From: Chloroflexota bacterium
Lineage (GTDB): Bacteria > Chloroflexota > Limnocylindria > Limnocylindrales > CSP1-4
Length of the DNA stretch: 13,743 bases
Assembly: GCA_021777365.1 (NCBI GenBank)
Contig: JAJYDP010000053.1
Coordinates: forward strand, 1-13,743
Direction: 5' to 3'
The notes beneath the pieces were generated by a model. That model was not told the origin of the DNA and ran no database searches. It was given only the letters and a program-made list of their open reading frames with translations. Shown here one piece after another: positions 6,417-12,531 of the stretch (its first letter is position 1; each line of letters begins with the position of its first letter). A program made the position numbers and the translations under genes.

Positions 6417-6432
6417 TAGAACAGATGTGCTA
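6417..6432. promoter_or_regulatory. Candidate LexA (SOS) box upstream of uvrA
   Basis: TAGAACAGATGTGCTA is an imperfect 16-bp palindrome in which six of seven arm positions pair. Its core GAAC-N4-GTGC differs at one base from GAAC-N4-GTTC, the LexA operator core of Bacillus and Actinobacteria. It overlaps the decarboxylase stop codon and the -35 region of the candidate uvrA promoter, the right place for a repressor of an SOS gene. The site is seen; LexA binding is inferred. Confidence 0.5.
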
Positions 6433-7725
6433 CTCGGCGGAGGACGGCAGGCGCTGGCCCTCGAGCCAGGCCTCCGCCTCGCGCCGGGGGCGCACGAGCA
6501 CAGCGCGGCCAGCGGTGACGGCGACCTCTGCTGGCGCGGCGTGCGACAGGAACCACGGCATCGACTGGGTGTAGCCGTAGGCGCCGGTGTCCAGCGCCAC
6601 CACGAGGTCGCCGGGCCTGGGCTCCGGGAAGGCGTCGATCCGGTCGAGCACGTCCAGCCCGGTGCAGAGAGGGCCGACGAAGTCGACGGGGACGCGCGGG
6701 CGGGCGCCGGGTGCGACGACGGGCGCGTCGGGGGCGATGGTCGAGACAGCTGCGTCCGCGTCGGCGACGAGCCGGAGACGGTGGTGGCGTCCGACGAGCG
6801 CCGGCGCCAGGAGGTGGTTGATCCCCCCGTCGAGCACCGCGACGTGCCGCCCCCGCAGCCGCTTCACGTCCACCACCCGCGCGAGGTAGGCGCCCGCGGG
6901 GCCCACCAGGAACCGCCCGGGTTCCAGGACGACGCGCGTGCCGCGTGTGGCCGGGTCCGCGGCCAGCGCCTCGTCGAGGCGCGAGAGGATCCCGCCGAGC
7001 ATCGCCAGGTCGAGCGCGGCGTCGCCGTCCGCGTACGGGATCCCGAGGCCACCGCCCGCGTCGATGACCCGCAGCGGGAAGCCCGCCGCGAGCGCCAGGT
7101 GTCGCCCGGCCTCCACGGTCCGCCGGGCGTGCGCCGCCAGCACCGCGGCATCGCGCTCGGCCGATACTCCGAACGAGTGAACACCCAGGCACTCGAGCCA
7201 TCGCGACCGCACGCACGTCCGTGCCGCCGCCAGCGCATCCTCCCACGACATCCCGAACGCCTGGTCGTCGTGGGCAGGCAGGCGGATCAGCACCGGGGCG
7301 ATCCGTCGCGCCTGCGCGGCCACCCGTTCCAGCCGGTCGAGCTCGCCGGGCGACTCCACCACGACCGCGCGGACGCCGGCCTCCACGGCGCGCGCGAGCA
7401 GGGCGTCCGACTTGCCCGGACCCGTCAGCATGGTGCGTGCCGCGGGGGCGCCTGCCCGGGCGGCCGCCGCCAGTTCCCCGGCCGAGGAAACGTCCACCCC
7501 GGTCCCGGCCGCCACCGCGGCGGCGATCACGGCGAGTGAGGGGTTCGCCTTGACCGCGTAGGCGATGTCGAAGCGCGCGGGCAGCCACGCGCGGAGCGCA
7601 CGCACCCGAGCGTCCACGAGGTCCAGGTCGTACACGTAGAGCGGCGTCCCGTGGGTCCGTGCCAGCTCCTCCGGGTCCTGCCCGGCCAGGAGACCCCGGC
7701 GCCAGATGCCAGGGTCGGCGGTCAT
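6430..7725 (-). CDS. lysA: PLP-dependent diaminopimelate decarboxylase-like protein (LysA by context)
   Basis: A 431-residue fold-III (alanine racemase-type) PLP decarboxylase. Visible features are YAVKANP with the Schiff-base lysine at 59, the glycine-rich phosphate-binding loop GGGLGIPY (224-231), EPGR (268-271), GPLCTGLD with the catalytic cysteine at 354, and [10 protein letters not shown] with the cofactor-contacting tyrosine at 384. The gene is last in the dapB-dapA-dapD run, and its ATG overlaps the dapD stop (ATGA), so by context it should convert meso-diaminopimelate to lysine in the cytoplasm. Two signatures deviate from typical LysA: CTGLD replaces CESGD, and HSFGVSA replaces the HIGSQ-type segment. 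Both resemble LysA relatives acting on other substrates, including carrier-bound ones. The fold and cofactor are certain; the substrate is inferred from the operon. Confidence 0.85.
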
Positions 7726-8543
7726 CGCAGCGCCGCCTCGAGCGCGGTCCGGGCGGACGTCCCCGTGTCGCGCATCTTCACGATCGCCGCGCACTGCAGG
7801 CCGATCCCCTGCGCCGAGGCGAACGCACCGCGCGCGGGCCGGGTGGCGGGGACCACCACGGCACCGGACGGGACGGCGAGCGGGGCCTCCGGCGTCCCCT
7901 CCAGCACCCGCTCGCCGACCAGGTCGTAGAGCCGGCTCGTCCCGGTCAGCACGACGCCGGCGGCCAGCACCGCGCCGCGGCCCACCAGCACGCCGTCGAA
8001 GAGCCCGCACTGGGCGCCCACGAACGCGTCGTCCTCCACGATCACCGGTCTCGCATTGGCCGGCTCGAGGACGCCGCCGATCTGCACGCCTGCGGAGAGG
8101 TGGACCCGCGCGCCCACCTGGGCGCAGGAGCCCACCAGCACGTGGGAGTCGACCATGGTCCCCTCCCCGACCCAGGCGCCGACGTTCACGTACGAGGGCG
8201 GCATGATCACCACGCCGTCGCCCAGGTACGCGCCGGCACGCACGCTGGTCCCGCCGGGCACGACCCGCCAGGGGCCGTCGAGCAGGCGTTTCGTCGGGAG
8301 CGTGGCCCGGTCCCGGAAGACGAGGACATCCGCCACCTGCCACTCGCGCATGGCAGGTTCCCGGAACAGCCCCAGGAGCTCCCGTCGCAGGTCGGGATCC
8401 ACGCGCCAGCCATCGGGCGAGGCTGGGTCCGGCCAGGCCGCCCGCCGCCGGCCGGCGTCCAGGTCGTCGAGCAGCGAGGGCAGCGCGCGCGGCTCACCCG
8501 CCGCCCTCGCCGTCGCCGCCGGCACGGACGCGCGCGCGCTCAT
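7722..8543 (-). CDS. dapD: 2,3,4,5-tetrahydropyridine-2,6-dicarboxylate N-succinyltransferase
   Basis: A 273-residue protein, almost the length of the Escherichia coli enzyme (274). DapD transfers succinyl from succinyl-CoA to tetrahydrodipicolinate, committing the pathway to the succinylase branch. Residues 1-100 are the N-terminal helical domain. Residues about 100-235 form the left-handed beta-helix of hexapeptide repeats, with the family blocks MPPSYVNVGAWVGEGTMVDS (114-133), VGSCAQVGARVHLSAGVQIG (137-156) and GVLEP (157-161). LQCAAIVK near 249-256 is the conserved C-terminal strand. One familiar block differs: the GARSEVVEG segment of enteric enzymes reads GAQCGLFDG here. The ATG at 8543 overlaps the dapA stop (ATGA) and gives the family-length N-terminus; there is no clear ribosome site, which fits translational coupling. 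Confidence 0.95.
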   Translation of the reverse strand: MSARASVPAATARAAGEPRALPSLLDDLDAGRRRAAWPDPASPDGWRVDPDLRRELLGLFREPAMREWQVADVLVFRDRATLPTKRLLDGPWRVVPGGTSVRAGAYLGDGVVIMPPSYVNVGAWVGEGTMVDSHVLVGSCAQVGARVHLSAGVQIGGVLEPANARPVIVEDDAFVGAQCGLFDGVLVGRGAVLAAGVVLTGTSRLYDLVGERVLEGTPEAPLAVPSGAVVVPATRPARGAFASAQGIGLQCAAIVKMRDTGTSARTALEAALR

Positions 8544-9652
8544 GCCCGCGCCGCCGCGACACGACGCGTCCGTGCCACGCCGTGGGCCGTGGTCCACGCC
8601 GTTCCAGCGGTCGCCACCGGTGCGCCCGGCTCGGCCGTCAGCAGGCCCTCGTCACGCAGCAGTTCCTGGAGCCGCCCCCGCCACGGATCCTCCAGCGGGA
8701 GGAGCGGCAGGCGCAGGCCATCCCCGATACGACCCATCATGGCCAGCGCGGCCTTCACGGGCACCGGGTTCGGGCCGCCGCGGAAGTTCGCCCGGAAGAG
8801 CGGCAGCCAGCGGGCATGCAGCGCGCGTGCCCGGTCCCAGTCGCCGCGCAGAGCCGACGCGCACAGGTCGGCCATCGCGGCGGGGATCTCGTTCGAGGCC
8901 ACGCTGATGACCCCGTCGCCTCCCATCGCCAGGGCGGCCAGCGTCCAGGCGTCGTCCCCCGCCATCACGGCGAAGCCCTGCGGTCGGTCGCGGATGATGG
9001 TGGCGATCTGCTCGAGGTTGCCCGACGCCTCCTTCACCGCCACCACCCGCGGGTGCTCGGCCAGGCGCAGCACCGTGTCCGCCTCGACGTTGGAGCCCGT
9101 CCGGGACGGCACGTTGTAGACGATGATCGGCAGCCCGCCCTCGTCGGCAACGGCGGTGAAGTGGGCCGCGAGCATCCGCTGGTCGGGACGGTTGTAGTAG
9201 GGCGCCACGACCAGTGCGGCGTCCGCGCCGAGCGCGGCGGCGCGCCGCGTGGCGCGGATGGTGGCCGCGGTGTCGTTGGTGCCGGTGCCCGCGACCACGA
9301 CGGGCCGGGCGGTCGCCTGCCGGTCGGTCGCCTGCCGGTCGGTCGCCTGCCGGACGCCCGCACTGCCGGAGGGCGCGCCCGTCGCCGTGGCATGGGCCAG
9401 GGCCGCCGCCTCCACCGTGGCGGCGATGACCCGCTCCCGCTCGTCCGGCGAGAGCGTGGGCGCCTCCCCGGTGGTGCCGCACGGGACCAGGCCGTCGATC
9501 CCGGCCGCCACCTGCCAGGCGAGCAGCCGCCGGAGGGCCGGCTCGTCGACCGCCCCGTCGGCGTCGAAGGGCGTCACGAGCGCGGTGAACGCTCCGCGGA
9601 TCAAGGGATCGCGCGTCTCGATATCCCGGGTCGTTCCGTCGTTCGGGTTCAT
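8540..9652 (-). CDS. dapA: 4-hydroxy-tetrahydrodipicolinate synthase with an internal repeat insert
   Basis: A 370-residue DapA, the TIM-barrel aldolase that condenses pyruvate with aspartate semialdehyde. Family residues are present: the TTGE block at 60-63, PYYNRP (151-156), YNVPSRTG with the catalytic tyrosine at 179 and substrate-binding arginine at 184, and VVAVKEASGN with the Schiff-base lysine at 207. The protein is about 70 residues longer than usual. Part of the excess is N-terminal. About 30 residues (86-116) are inserted before the RPVVVAGTGTND strand and contain RQATD, RQATD, RQATA. The remainder is a Thr/Ala/Arg-rich C-terminal tail (341-370). The ATG at 9652 overlaps the dapB stop (ATGA) and also has its own AGGAGG at 9664-9659, eliminating doubt about the start. 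Confidence 0.95.
   Translation of the reverse strand: MNPNDGTTRDIETRDPLIRGAFTALVTPFDADGAVDEPALRRLLAWQVAAGIDGLVPCGTTGEAPTLSPDERERVIAATVEAAALAHATATGAPSGSAGVRQATDRQATDRQATARPVVVAGTGTNDTAATIRATRRAAALGADAALVVAPYYNRPDQRMLAAHFTAVADEGGLPIIVYNVPSRTGSNVEADTVLRLAEHPRVVAVKEASGNLEQIATIIRDRPQGFAVMAGDDAWTLAALAMGGDGVISVASNEIPAAMADLCASALRGDWDRARALHARWLPLFRANFRGGPNPVPVKAALAMMGRIGDGLRLPLLPLEDPWRGRLQELLRDEGLLTAEPGAPVATAGTAWTTAHGVARTRRVAAARA
9311..9355. repeat. 15-bp tandem repeat, three copies, inside dapA
   Basis: GGTCGCCTGCCGGTC occurs at 9311-9325 and 9326-9340, with a third copy at 9341-9355 differing in one base. On the coding strand it encodes the pentapeptide RQATD three times (last unit RQATA). Because 15 is a multiple of three, gain or loss of a unit would keep dapA in frame. 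Confidence 0.95.
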
Positions 9653-10413
9653 CGTGTGCCTCCTGCGATCTCGGCGCCGACCAGTTCGTCGACGACGCAG
9701 TCGAACGTGTGGATGCCGGGGCACCGGGGAGACCGGAGCAGCCAGTCGGCCGCGGCAAGTGCCCCCATCGCGTATGCGGAGCGGTCCCGCGCGGTCAGGC
9801 GCAGCTCCACCGTCTCGCCCGGCGCATCGAAGCCGACCAGGTGCATGCCCGGCGACGAACCGGCGCGCACGCTGGCCACCTCGAGCTCGTCCGGGGCCGG
9901 CGGGCCGTCGCGCGGGCCCTCGACCATCCGCGCCTTGGCCGGATGGCCGTCCACGATCCGCCGCCCCAGCTCGAGGGCCGTGCCGGAGGGGCGGTCTGTC
10001 TTCCCGCGGCGGTGCCACTCCACCAGGTAGGGGTCGTAGGCGGGCAGGGCACCGAACATGCGGCTGGCCGAGGCCACCAGGCGCCCGAGGAGGTTGACGC
10101 CTGGACTGAAGTTCGCGGCGACCACCGCGGACGCGCCGTGCCGTGTCAGCAGGGCGCCGATCTCGGCCGGCGTGACGCTCCAGGCCGTGGTGCCGATCAC
10201 GAACGCGCGACAGCCCCCGGCCAGTCCGGCCGCCAGGTTCCCCAGGACCGCCGTGCCGCGGGAGAACTCGAAGACGACATCCGCCCCGGCGAAGGAACCC
10301 GGAGGATGCGTGCCCGCCGGGCGCCCCAGCACCACCGCGGTGTCGCCCCGCTCGACCAGGCCGCCCGCCACCGCACGGCCCATCGGGCCGTCGCCCATCA
10401 CGATCGCTCGCAT
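9649..10413 (-). CDS. dapB: 4-hydroxy-tetrahydrodipicolinate reductase
   Basis: A 254-residue DapB, which reduces the DapA product with NAD(P)H to tetrahydrodipicolinate. The N-terminal Rossmann fold opens MRAIVMGDGPMGRAV with the dinucleotide-binding glycines at 7-12; GTTAW (74-78) and AANFSPGVNLL (99-109) match the cofactor and hinge blocks. The substrate loop is EWHRRGKTDRPSGTA (132-146): the first histidine (134) and lysine (138) of the canonical ExHHxxKxDxPSGTA motif are kept, but the second histidine is arginine. The sequence is divergent but of normal length. The ATG at 10413 has GGAGG eight bases upstream (10426-10422), and that site is itself inside an inverted repeat. It is the first full gene of the dap operon and follows a structured leader. 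Confidence 0.93.
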   Translation of the reverse strand: MRAIVMGDGPMGRAVAGGLVERGDTAVVLGRPAGTHPPGSFAGADVVFEFSRGTAVLGNLAAGLAGGCRAFVIGTTAWSVTPAEIGALLTRHGASAVVAANFSPGVNLLGRLVASASRMFGALPAYDPYLVEWHRRGKTDRPSGTALELGRRIVDGHPAKARMVEGPRDGPPAPDELEVASVRAGSSPGMHLVGFDAPGETVELRLTARDRSAYAMGALAAADWLLRSPRCPGIHTFDCVVDELVGAEIAGGTR

Positions 10414-10420
10414 CACGCCG

Positions 10421-10436
10421 TCCTCCAGGTGGAGGA
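10421..10436 (-). promoter_or_regulatory. Hairpin sequestering the dapB Shine-Dalgarno sequence
   Basis: On the minus strand TCCTCC (10436-10431), loop ACCT, then GGAGGA (10426-10421) form a perfect six-pair hairpin. The 3' arm is the dapB ribosome-binding site, so folding would block initiation. This gives a second control point downstream of the terminator. Confidence 0.6.
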
Positions 10437-10470
10437 GCCGCCGGTGGGGGTCCGTCCGTCGCCGGACACG

Positions 10471-10503
10471 AAAAAGCCGCGGACACCGTCGTGGTTCCGC
10501 GGC
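10471..10503 (-). terminator. Intrinsic terminator (attenuator) 58 nt upstream of dapB
   Basis: On the minus strand GCCGCGGA (10503-10496) pairs perfectly with TCCGCGGC (10483-10476), with an extra ACC/GGT pairing possible in the 12-base loop. TTTTT follows at once (10475-10471). No complete gene lies upstream on this strand before the dap promoter, so the terminator must act on the dap leader transcript. Confidence 0.75.
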
Positions 10504-10555
10504 CCTTCGGGACCTCCGTGCCTGGAGGCCCCGTTCGTCGTCCGACGCGAAGCCT

Positions 10556-10615
10556 CTAGGCCCGTGCCTCCCGGCAGGGCCGCCAGCGCTTCGCATTCAG
10601 TGCGACGTTGATCAT
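10556..10615 (-). CDS. Candidate 19-residue leader peptide of the dap operon
   Basis: This ORF reads MINVALNAKRWRPCREARA and ends in TAG. Its ATG lies about three bases after the predicted transcription start, so it would be translated from an essentially leaderless message; no Shine-Dalgarno site is present. The coding region forms the 5' arm of P1 and the whole inner stem, and the stop falls in the internal loop, the layout expected if ribosome position decides the fold. It has a single lysine codon, so a simple run of lysine codons sensing lysyl-tRNA is not supported; arginine codons are frequent, with one Trp and one Cys. It could also be a chance ORF in a structured RNA. Confidence 0.45.
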   Translation of the reverse strand: MINVALNAKRWRPCREARA

Positions 10616-10619
10616 GGTC

Positions 10620-10655
10620 GCCGGACAATACCGGCCCGTGGTTGCCATGTCAACC
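10620..10655. promoter_or_regulatory. Two operator-like inverted repeats covering the dap promoter
   Basis: GCCGG-N6-CCGGC (10620-10635) has the -10 hexamer as its spacer, and GGTTG-N6-CAACC (10640-10655) covers the -35 hexamer. Both have five-base perfect arms and six-base spacers, and their centres are 20 bp apart, about two helical turns. The arm sequences differ, so they may be coincidental or bind different proteins. Confidence 0.35.
10625..10653 (-). promoter_or_regulatory. Sigma-70-type promoter of the dap operon
   Basis: A perfect -35 TTGACA (10653-10648), a 17-bp spacer and a -10 TATTGT (10630-10625) are present on the minus strand. Transcription should start at the A at 10618. In such GC-rich DNA a match of this quality is unlikely by chance. 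Confidence 0.8.
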
Positions 10656-10792
10656 ACCGTCCGGGCGCGGGCGGCGCCCGCGTCGTCAGCTCGAGCGTGG
10701 CCACCCCGGCCGCCGTGCCAGCCGCCAGCGCCACTGACCGCCGCCCGGGCGCCACCACGGCCGCCACCGTGCCCGCCGGCGGGAGCGCCACC

Positions 10793-10798
10793 TACAAT
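10793..10798 (+). promoter_or_regulatory. Candidate -10 element for the PfpI-family gene
   Basis: TACAAT is one base from consensus and would start transcription near 10805, leaving a 33-nt leader with a good Shine-Dalgarno site. No clear -35 lies at the usual distance. The stretch 10656-10792 is GC-rich spacer with no recognisable gene. Confidence 0.45.
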
Positions 10799-10837
10799 CG
10801 GTCACATTCGGACAGCAGCGCGCCGGGAGGCGAACAG

Positions 10838-11374
10838 ATGCGGCTCGAGGGTATGCGGATCGCGGTGCTTGCCGCCGAGGGCGTCGAGGACCTGGAGTAC
10901 TGGTGCACCGTGATGCGGCTGCGCGAGGAGGGCGCTCGCGTCACGAGCGTGGGCATCGCGCCCGGCGCGGTCCGCGGCAAGAACGGGCTCGAGGTGCCGG
11001 TCGAGACGGCGGCAGCGGACGTCAGCGAGGCGTCGTTCGATGCGCTCGTGGTCCCCGGCGGCTGGGCGCCGGACAAGCTGCGCCGGTACGAGGCCGTGAC
11101 GGGGCTCGTGGCGGGGGTCCGGACGGCCGGCAAGCCGATCGCGATCGTCTGCCACGGCGGCCTGGTCGCGATCTCCGCGAAGATCGTGGACGGCGTCCGT
11201 GCCACCGGATCGAAGGGGATCAAGGACGACCTGGTGAACGCCGGCGCCACCTGGGTCGACGAGCCTGCGTTCCGCGACCACGACATGGCCTGGGGGCGCG
11301 TTGTGGACGACATCCCCGCGTTCCTGCGCGAGACGGTCGACCTCTTCGCCGAGCACCACGCGCGTCGGGCCTGA
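10838..11374 (+). CDS. DJ-1/PfpI family protein (class I glutamine amidotransferase-like)
   Basis: A 178-residue single-domain protein of normal length for the PfpI/YhbO group. The nucleophile elbow AIVCHGG places the conserved cysteine at 105 followed by His106; the conserved acidic residue is Glu14 (AAEGVEDLEY). The family blocks VVPGGWAPDKLR (71-82), KGIKDDLVNAGATWVDE (126-142) and the C-terminal DDIPAFLRETVDLF (157-170) are all recognisable. Members have been described as proteases, glyoxalase-like enzymes or protein/nucleotide deglycases acting in the cytoplasm; which applies cannot be told here. The ATG at 10838 has GGGAGG at 10825-10830, seven bases upstream. It is transcribed divergently from the dap operon and is followed after 86 bp by the ERCC4-type gene. 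A 14-bp perfect palindrome (CCTGACCGGTCAGG, 11370-11383) spans its stop codon. Confidence 0.93.
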   Translation: MRLEGMRIAVLAAEGVEDLEYWCTVMRLREEGARVTSVGIAPGAVRGKNGLEVPVETAAADVSEASFDALVVPGGWAPDKLRRYEAVTGLVAGVRTAGKPIAIVCHGGLVAISAKIVDGVRATGSKGIKDDLVNAGATWVDEPAFRDHDMAWGRVVDDIPAFLRETVDLFAEHHARRA

Positions 11375-11383
11375 CCGGTCAGG
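11370..11383. repeat. Perfect 14-bp palindrome over the PfpI-family stop codon
   Basis: CCTGACCGGTCAGG reads the same on both strands and contains the TGA at 11372-11374. It lies about 80 bp before the ERCC4-type gene, so it could be a protein-binding site for that gene, a weak terminator stem, or chance. Confidence 0.35.
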
Positions 11384-11460
11384 AGGAGGGACCCGGGAAC
11401 AGCGTCCGATCGACGAGCGCGCGGCGCGACTGCCGCCACACCTGAACGGGGCATGCCAGC

Positions 11461-12531
11461 ATGCGGTTCCTGATCGCGCGGAATCCCGATTCCGAGTCCA
11501 GCCTGCCGTACCTGGTCAGGCTGCCGATCGAGGGCGGCATCGTCTTCAAGGCGCGGGACACCTGGCCGCGTACGAGCCGGGTGTTCTGCATGCCGGTCCC
11601 GGGTGGATGGCCCGACGACCCGGACGTCGTGGAGGACGTCGCGGTCCTGGTCTGCCGGAGGCGCGGGATCGCGATCGACCTCGTGGTGGACCGACCCCGG
11701 CTGAACCGCTCGCAGTTCGTGTTCACCACGCTGCCGAACGGACGGGAGGCCGTCTTCTGGCAGACACGGAAGGTCGTGGGTACCGCGCGCCCTGGTGCCC
11801 GCATCCCCGGCCGGCGGGCGAGCGGCATTCGCGAGGTCGAGATCGTCGTCGACACGCGCGAGCACTACCCGTACCGGTTCGCCAGGCAGCAGGCCTCCAC
11901 GGCCCGGGGCGCCCTGCCGGCGGGCGACTACGGAGTGCGCGATCCCGGCGGCGCGCTGGTCGCCGTGGTCGAGCGGAAGGCCCTCGCCGACCTGGCGGCT
12001 GGCCTCAACGACGGCACCTTCGTCTTCGAGCTCGCACGTCTGGCCGACGTTCCGCGCGCGGCGGTCGTCGTCGAGGACCGCTACTCGGCCCTGGTCCGCC
12101 ATGCCCACGCTCCCGCGGGGTTCCTTCCGGACCTGCTTGCCCGGGTCCAGGTGCGGTACCCGGAGATCCCCATCGTCTTCGCCGAGACACGCCCGCTGGC
12201 CGAGGAGTGGACGTTCCGCTACCTTGGCGCGGCGCTCGCCGAATCGCTCGACACCGCCGCCGGGTTCGCAGTCCATGAGCGAGGCCCCGGGCAGCGCGTC
12301 GCGGAGCGGCCGGACGCGACCGCGACCGCGACCGCGACCACGACCGAGACCGAGATTGACGCTGCGTCGGCGGCTGCGAGTTCGACGGGCGCCACGGCGA
12401 TGGGCACCACGGCGACCGGCGCGACGGCGACCGGCGCGACGGCGACCGGCGCGACGGCGACCGGCGCGACGGCGACCGGCGCGACGGCGACCGGCGCCTC
12501 GAGCAGGCCCGCGCCTTCCGACGATCGCTGA
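11461..12531 (+). CDS. ERCC4/XPF-type nuclease domain protein
   Basis: A 356-residue protein. Residues 1-120 form an N-terminal region (LPYLVRLPIEGGIVFKARD, SQFVFTTLPNGREAVFWQ) that I recall from actinobacterial ERCC4-domain proteins but that has no known role. Residues about 125-265 are an ERCC4 nuclease domain with VVDTRE (Asp131), GDY (155-157) and VERKALAD (Glu171, Arg172, Lys173, Asp177), matching the GDXnERKX3D metal-dependent active site of XPF/Mus81 enzymes, which cut branched or flap DNA. VVVEDRYS and AEEWTFRYLGAALAE follow as in the family. Eukaryotic partners and a helix-hairpin-helix domain are absent. Residues 285-345 are Ala/Thr/Gly low complexity, including five exact ATATG units. 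The start has only a weak GGGG upstream; an out-of-frame ATG lies 8 bp before. Confidence 0.88.
   Translation: MRFLIARNPDSESSLPYLVRLPIEGGIVFKARDTWPRTSRVFCMPVPGGWPDDPDVVEDVAVLVCRRRGIAIDLVVDRPRLNRSQFVFTTLPNGREAVFWQTRKVVGTARPGARIPGRRASGIREVEIVVDTREHYPYRFARQQASTARGALPAGDYGVRDPGGALVAVVERKALADLAAGLNDGTFVFELARLADVPRAAVVVEDRYSALVRHAHAPAGFLPDLLARVQVRYPEIPIVFAETRPLAEEWTFRYLGAALAESLDTAAGFAVHERGPGQRVAERPDATATATATTTETEIDAASAAASSTGATAMGTTATGATATGATATGATATGATATGATATGASSRPAPSDDR
12391..12495. repeat. 15-bp minisatellite, seven units, at the 3' end of the ERCC4-type gene
   Basis: Five exact copies of GCGACGGCGACCGGC run from 12421 to 12495, preceded by two degenerate units (12391-12405 and 12406-12420). They are in codon phase and encode ATATG five times. 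Just upstream (about 12316-12351) is a six-base GCGACC-type run encoding Ala-Thr pairs that grades into Thr-Glu. Confidence 0.95.

Follow-up and report, generated by a model that had tools for sequence, protein, structure and literature searches.

What controls the lysine operon at this Chloroflexota locus? RNA control of lysine genes is known in the form of the L-box and the T-box, and that of methionine genes in the form of SAM riboswitches and T-boxes. An earlier note on this DNA had found neither an L-box nor a T-box core ahead of dapB, and had put forward two proposals, a peptide attenuator and a ligand-binding RNA of a new kind. Analysis of the whole stretch of DNA (13,743 nucleotides, here called the window) leads us to conclude that the leader is very probably a ribosome-mediated transcription attenuator of the E. 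coli his type, which would sense lysyl-tRNA through a leader peptide. The first of the two proposals was therefore supported and the second, the ligand-binding RNA, was not. The genes downstream of the leader are the following:

9649..10413, minus strand: dapB, ATG at 10413-10411; PF05173 (DapB_C), 88.7 bits, cut-off 27
8540..9619, minus strand: dapA; TIGR00674, 291 bits, cut-off 206 (scored on 8540-9706), also PF00701
7722..8597 (start putative), minus strand: dapD; NF008808, 250.5 bits, cut-off 204 (scored on 7722-8537)
6430..7800 (start putative), minus strand: lysA-like decarboxylase; TIGR01048, 245 bits, below the cut-off of 298

The start of uvrA lies about 35 nt beyond the dapB-dapA-dapD-lysA operon. 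Elsewhere in the window, positions 12320-12500 (plus strand) hold tandem short repeats, with GACCGC-type and GACCGGCGCGACGGC-type units, at the C-terminal end of an ERCC4-domain protein.

An Rfam scan of the window gave no family at the gathering score, amino-acid leader families included, and permissive settings added three sub-threshold matches, none of them lysine-related; a significant match to a known family, which the earlier note had named as evidence against its proposal, did not appear. Two known identities were thus rejected: the L-box (RF00168), with no model match in the window and none in families f1 or f4 of the class (see below), and the T-box, with no match at the gathering score in the window. 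The parts of the leader are given here:

10625..10653, minus strand: promoter, -35 TTGACA at 10653-10648, -10 TATTGT at 10630-10625, 17-nt spacer
10556..10615, minus strand: leader ORF of 19 codons, MINVALNAKRWRPCREARA and stop, ATG at 10615, TAG at 10558-10556
10589..10597, minus strand: putative regulatory codon site X1-x-X2, AAT GCG AAG in the window (N-A-K)
10573..10594, minus strand: strand A, overlapping the second Lys codon (from folds and motif positions)
10552..10568, minus strand: strand B, holding the stop codon, pairs with A or C
10520..10532, minus strand: strand C, pairs with D (hairpin) or B (antiterminator)
10509..10517, minus strand: strand D, pairs with C or E
10493..10505, minus strand: strand E, 5' side of the terminator, whose helix is paired in 92.5% of cells in 35 leaders
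10471..10487, minus strand: strand F and the T5 run of the intrinsic terminator (from folds, the covariation alignment and motif positions)
10581-10559, minus strand: nested stem with a GGGA (GNRA) loop (from the fold)
10532-10509, minus strand: second hairpin (from the fold)
10503-10476, minus strand: terminator hairpin, T5 at 10475-10471 (from the fold)
10422..10434, minus strand: CTCC-ACCT-GGAG hairpin over the dapB Shine-Dalgarno sequence (from pairing in the window)

The near-consensus promoter claimed earlier was confirmed: TTGACA-17-TATTGT matches the consensus at 10 of 12 positions, and a consensus scan of 9500-11500 gave this site and no other, with a mean of 0.0 sites in shuffles. 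The ATG of the leader ORF is 9 nt 3' of the -10 box. Among 136 leaders of relatives, 61 have a promoter with at least 8 of 12 matches whose end lies 3-13 nt ahead of a start codon in frame, compared with 0.6% of control positions; in some Met leaders of genus g3 (see below for this type) the start lies further upstream. The leader ORF is probably leaderless, a reading that the promoter-to-start spacing fits. The 208-nt leader (10619-10412) folds to -117 kcal/mol, where shuffles average -93.0 (z -5.46; 0/200 shuffles as good). The nested stem with its GNRA-type tetraloop and the second hairpin, both described in the earlier note, were confirmed, and the intrinsic terminator with T5 is supported by folding and conservation, though a simple consensus scan listed none at the leader.

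The E. coli his attenuator combines a leader peptide that has codons for the amino acid of its own pathway with strands A to F and an intrinsic terminator. The leader studied here resembles it in its own amino-acid codons, in its terminator and in its six strands, where A:B, C:D and E:F (the terminator) are set against B:C and D:E (the antiterminator). From this arrangement we infer ribosome stalling and, in the cell, a choice between termination and read-through that would respond to lysine. Under lysine shortage, a ribosome translating the leader ORF would stall at the Lys codons and cover strand A; B would then pair with C and D with E, the terminator E:F would be hindered, and dapB-dapA-dapD-lysA would be transcribed. 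When lysine is plentiful, the ribosome would reach the stop codon inside B and cover B, C:D would form, E would be left free, E:F would form and transcription would end. With no translation at all, A:B, C:D and E:F would form, and this state too would terminate.

A ribosome footprint, set to +13 from the A-site codon, was imposed on minimum free energy folds of the window. With the ribosome at X2 and the transcript ending before F, B:C and D:E formed, and with the ribosome at the stop codon C:D and E:F formed. B:C joins 10561-10552 with 10529-10520 (9/10 pairs, by eye), and D:E joins 10514-10510 with 10505-10501. In the window, the probability of C:D was 0.02 with the ribosome stalled, 0.997 with it at the stop codon and 0.96 when it was stalled and B was shuffled, none of 40 shuffles being as low. 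The same test, in which 40 of 142 leaders were unscored, was applied to leaders with Lys, Met or Cys at the codon site (K-, M- and C-type). K-type leaders (n=53) had means of 0.20 stalled, 0.71 at the stop codon and 0.63 with B shuffled, 50 of the 53 falling below their own shuffle mean; the signal was weaker in M-type leaders (n=43; 0.36, 0.59 and 0.47; 27/43 below the shuffle mean), and the two C-type leaders gave 0.00 throughout. Among 33 genus-and-type representatives, the mean B:C energy was -18.7 kcal/mol within a leader and -17.5 after B was swapped between genera; 1 of 20000 permutations made within types did as well (407/20000 for K alone, 20/20000 for M alone).

The hairpins and the terminator also covary in an alignment of 35 leaders, a result of the kind that the earlier note had named as support for its proposal. 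In this alignment 90.7% of cells pair (shuffles 87.1%) and both sides have changed in 34 cells (shuffles 13.4), the structure having been picked from the same alignment and so being favoured against the slid control; one of the five measures, that of further pair types, was not beyond shuffles (127/500). Some results run against the model. In the full-length fold of the window E:F still forms in the stalled state, and because of this antitermination would need to be kinetic, as it is in classical attenuators. The probability of D:E moved in the wrong direction for K-type leaders (stalled above stop in 11/62), perhaps because GGCC of E can also pair with C; for M-type leaders the same metric favours the model (43/62). 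Those features of ribosome-mediated attenuation that can be looked for in a sequence were found, namely a predicted leader ORF, its codons, an intrinsic terminator before the first gene (from folds and the 35-leader alignment) and a mutually exclusive antiterminator, the last clearer in K-type than in M-type leaders.

How far is the leader kept in other genomes? The nearest relative of the window, G001, is nearly identical. Ahead of dapB, all 14 loci of the first relatives carry a short ORF together with hairpins and a stem that resembles a terminator, and the leader ORF, whose translation is predicted, is kept in 15 of 15 sequences when the window is added. A search with the DapB protein matched in 24 of 61 relatives; the 38 DapB loci with named records are mostly from 'Chloroflexi bacterium' MAGs, one being from a 'Candidatus Limnocylindrales' (L044). 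A covariance model, R1, built from 15 dapB leaders only, with no Met or Cys codon at the site, matched 75 of the 177 genomes of the class; of its 121 matches we examined 111 and then read 2 more (L226, L227), the remaining 8 being left out. DapB scored over the Pfam cut-off in 71 genomes, and the leader lies directly upstream of dapB in 64 of them. Seven DapB genomes have no recognised leader (G098, G111, G128, G019, G145, G155, G171); G019, the one of the seven covered by our reading, has a diverged leader by eye (VITSWLKRRKQRSPAEAVGR and stop, a GC-rich stem, T5). A weak R1 match in G155 (L129) was rejected as just a terminator-like stretch.

With the codon site anchored on strand A, Lys occupies X1 in 59 of the 65 anchored dapB leaders and X2 in 64 of them, and the sole X2 miss, L163, is a wrong anchor whose actual reading is K-S-K. 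At least two Lys codons occur at the site in 65 of 67 dapB leaders, a count that takes in the window and the unanchored L085 and L171. The codon pair in G001 and most relatives is AAG-x-AAG. AAA stands for AAG in five leaders (L150, L151, L152, L159, L182), so it is the amino acid rather than the exact triplet that is kept. The exceptions with one Lys are L162 and the window itself, both of which have AAT where most have AAG, and the single Lys of the window is a point against the model. At 10597-10595 (minus strand) the window reads AAT (Asn) and G001 reads AAG (Lys), a variant or a sequencing difference.

The Trp, Arg and Pro codons adjoining the site are conserved as well, another point against the model. 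Arg occupies codon 5 after X1 in 65/65 dapB leaders and in 64/64 metY leaders among the matches listed, with Pro or Ser next, and this could mean that an RWRP-type nascent peptide, helped by the residues of the codon site, arrests the ribosome, rather than a plain shortage of charged tRNA. The same stretch of RNA, however, is strand A, and helix 1 is paired in 94.9% of cells of the 35-leader alignment, so that its conservation can be put down to the pairing of A with B. Trp, moreover, is often replaced (W in 32/64 metY leaders among the matches listed), and specificity tracks the codon pair; we consider an arrest peptide very unlikely.

The hairpin that the earlier note had placed over the dapB ribosome site is present in the window (10434-10422), where its CTCC and GGAG arms would permit control to be mainly translational, with the terminator secondary. 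As a general feature of these leaders it did not stand: the Shine-Dalgarno 5-mer is fully paired in 13 of the 58 dapB starts with a recognisable Shine-Dalgarno sequence (8.1% in shuffles), against the 92.5% of cells in which the terminator helix is paired. Given this poor conservation across dapB starts, we rejected the hairpin as the main device, and translational control of this kind has next to no chance of being the right account.

The clearest evidence for a ribosome-read attenuator came from other genes. R1, made from dapB leaders, also matched leaders with an M-x-M codon site at the same distance from strand A (for example VEHTTVSWIMCMRWRPRRTEDGV and stop), and all 33 of its matches with metY within 1 kb were MxM. 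The same model also picked up leaders with Cys-x-Cys codons ahead of cysE-cysK. A second model, R2, was built from 35 K, M and C leaders; 23 genomes were rerun with it and 20 further matches read, its counts being among the matches listed. Among these, 63 of 64 metY leaders were MxM and none had Lys, and Met occurred at neither X1 nor X2 in the anchored set of dapB leaders. Both dapB and metY leaders are present in 14 genera. At L108 an MxM leader is followed by metY, which scores above the TIGR01326 cut-off, and metX, which stays under that of TIGR01392. Further genes behind MxM leaders are carbonic-anhydrase-like, OsmC-like and, both above their cut-offs, an SsuA-type sulfonate transporter (TIGR01728) and threonine synthase (TIGR00260).

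Cys codons mark a third set. CSC or CFC precedes cysE, often with cysK (L132, L134, L135, L211, L217, L253); at L132, the sole cysE locus checked with profiles, cysK is over its cut-off and cysE is below that of TIGR01172 and above that of NF041874. CTC or CSC precedes cystathionine beta-synthase-like genes (L236, L243, L246, L248), of which the one checked with NCBIfam, L236, scored 506 bits against a cut-off of 510. CCCC lies before a DUF4395 gene in L250 and upstream of a MoeZ-like gene in L251. One codon off register, CVCMC (L189) precedes a NirA-family nitrite/sulfite reductase and a cysG N-terminal domain, and CRC (L238) a gene with a CMD domain. Lys, Met and Cys are the only residues seen at the site among the loci read; there are degenerate copies, MCT (L142), MCR (L190) and MLCL or MMCL (L241, L244, L252), and L207 and L245 have no recognisable codon site.

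Several of the Met leaders have neighbours of some interest in themselves. In L121, L122, L142 and L213 the leader lies directly before a gene of the beta-carbonic-anhydrase family (Pro_CA), with metY next in L121; its product may have a role in supplying sulfur instead of CO2. In L122 (G079:C253) the Met leader and carbonic-anhydrase-like gene are about 1 kb upstream of a Lys leader and dapB, in the same direction, and in L204/L163 (G060:C5 140095-140750) a Met-type leader and the Lys-type leader of dapB are divergent within about 700 bases, the former preceding an SCO4226-like gene and then an ORF without a family match. OsmC-like genes follow L124, L125, L127, L136, L214, L239 and L247, some alone and some with metY after them. 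Threonine synthase, of the homoserine branch and an unexpected target, follows L235 (MAM), L242 (MAM) and L249 (MSM). In L110-L127 many Met leaders have, after the terminator, a CCTCCG block and then a CGACGGG-type and a CCGCC-type stretch; this block could pair back with the GGAGG and GGCGG of the leader.

The change of codon with the downstream gene is the decisive evidence for the predicted ribosome-read attenuator: with a constant scaffold and a codon pair that changes with the gene, nature has performed a codon-swap experiment that reveals what the switch reads. The same scaffold, carrying Met-x-Met or Cys codons, would serve methionine and cysteine genes in this one group of bacteria. 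It is here that a new ligand-binding riboswitch for lysine or diaminopimelate, with the short ORF incidental, has to be weighed. A strongly structured and conserved leader before a lysine operon is what such a riboswitch would look like, but what varies among dapB, metY and cys leaders is the codon pair, on an RNA scaffold that is constant, the ORF persists with a stop codon that falls in B or close to it, and the window has no match to any Rfam riboswitch family; we hold this alternative to be very improbable. Returning to the attenuator, it is likely that one ancestral cassette was copied to several operons of the class and re-tuned between Lys, Met and Cys by about two codons (AAG, ATG, TGY), giving a paralogous attenuator regulon with interchangeable sensors, which at dapB would stand in place of the lysine riboswitch of a sister family. 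The leader ORF with its Lys codons, the antiterminator and the paralogous Met and Cys versions all go beyond the earlier note.

The distribution of the two lysine devices was then compared. R2 matched 29 of 400 genomes in the phylum at E ≤ 0.001, 28 in the class and one weakly outside it (G334, 7.5e-4). Leaders directly upstream of dapB, which the earlier note had suggested looking for in related genomes, were found in 65 genomes, all in families f1 and f4 of one Chloroflexota class. The L-box scored over cut-off in 25 of the 177 class genomes, 24 in f3, 1 in f5 and none in f1 or f4, and the one in G155 (f3) is located upstream of dapB, with which it shares contig and strand. Two families of the class (f1 and f4) therefore have dapB leaders and two others (f3 and f5) have the L-box instead. 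SAM-I riboswitches were over cut-off in 83 of the 177 genomes, including genomes with Met leaders.

Compared with known systems, the leaders depart from the E. coli his attenuator in the identity, number and spacing of their codons, which are for Lys, Met or Cys, number just two or three and follow an X-x-X pattern in place of an unbroken run. The window leader differs further in being probably leaderless, in having no Rfam match and in belonging to Chloroflexota. The L-box RF00168 would share lysine control with our leader, but it is a ligand-binding RNA of 182 model positions. Canestrari 2020 is said to have described polycysteine leaderless ORFs in mycobacteria, and the Chloroflexota Cys leaders, which are probably leaderless, resemble these as short Cys-codon ORFs ahead of cysteine genes; unlike them, they have a terminator and an antiterminator and a scaffold common to the Lys and Met versions. 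For the mycobacterial Cys leader ORFs, a passage of PMC1262725 reports no conserved terminator hairpins. Other passages of that paper describe trp and leuS attenuators in Actinobacteria, which are likewise classical attenuation in high-GC bacteria and differ in their amino acids, and report that in Actinobacteria none of the lysine or methionine operons was seen to have conserved RNA structures upstream. According to part of PMC2965389, leader-peptide systems had until then been shown only in Proteobacteria and Actinobacteria, to which that paper adds Firmicutes, and PMC4833913 mentions, in connection with histidyl-tRNA, a case of lysQ in Lactococcus. In the open-licence PMC literature, subscription papers being outside this coverage, we found no Lys- or Met-codon attenuator, and in the same literature no attenuator in Limnocylindria and no shared scaffold with exchangeable codons.

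The class of mechanism is already known; what appears to be new is the choice of amino acids and a shared scaffold that can be re-tuned. Lys-codon and Met-codon attenuators would fill a gap in the known RNA control of these genes, and how attenuators arise and are re-tuned becomes open to direct test. The leaders are also an aid to annotating operons for lysine and sulfur in a group that is poorly known and, for the most part, uncultured.
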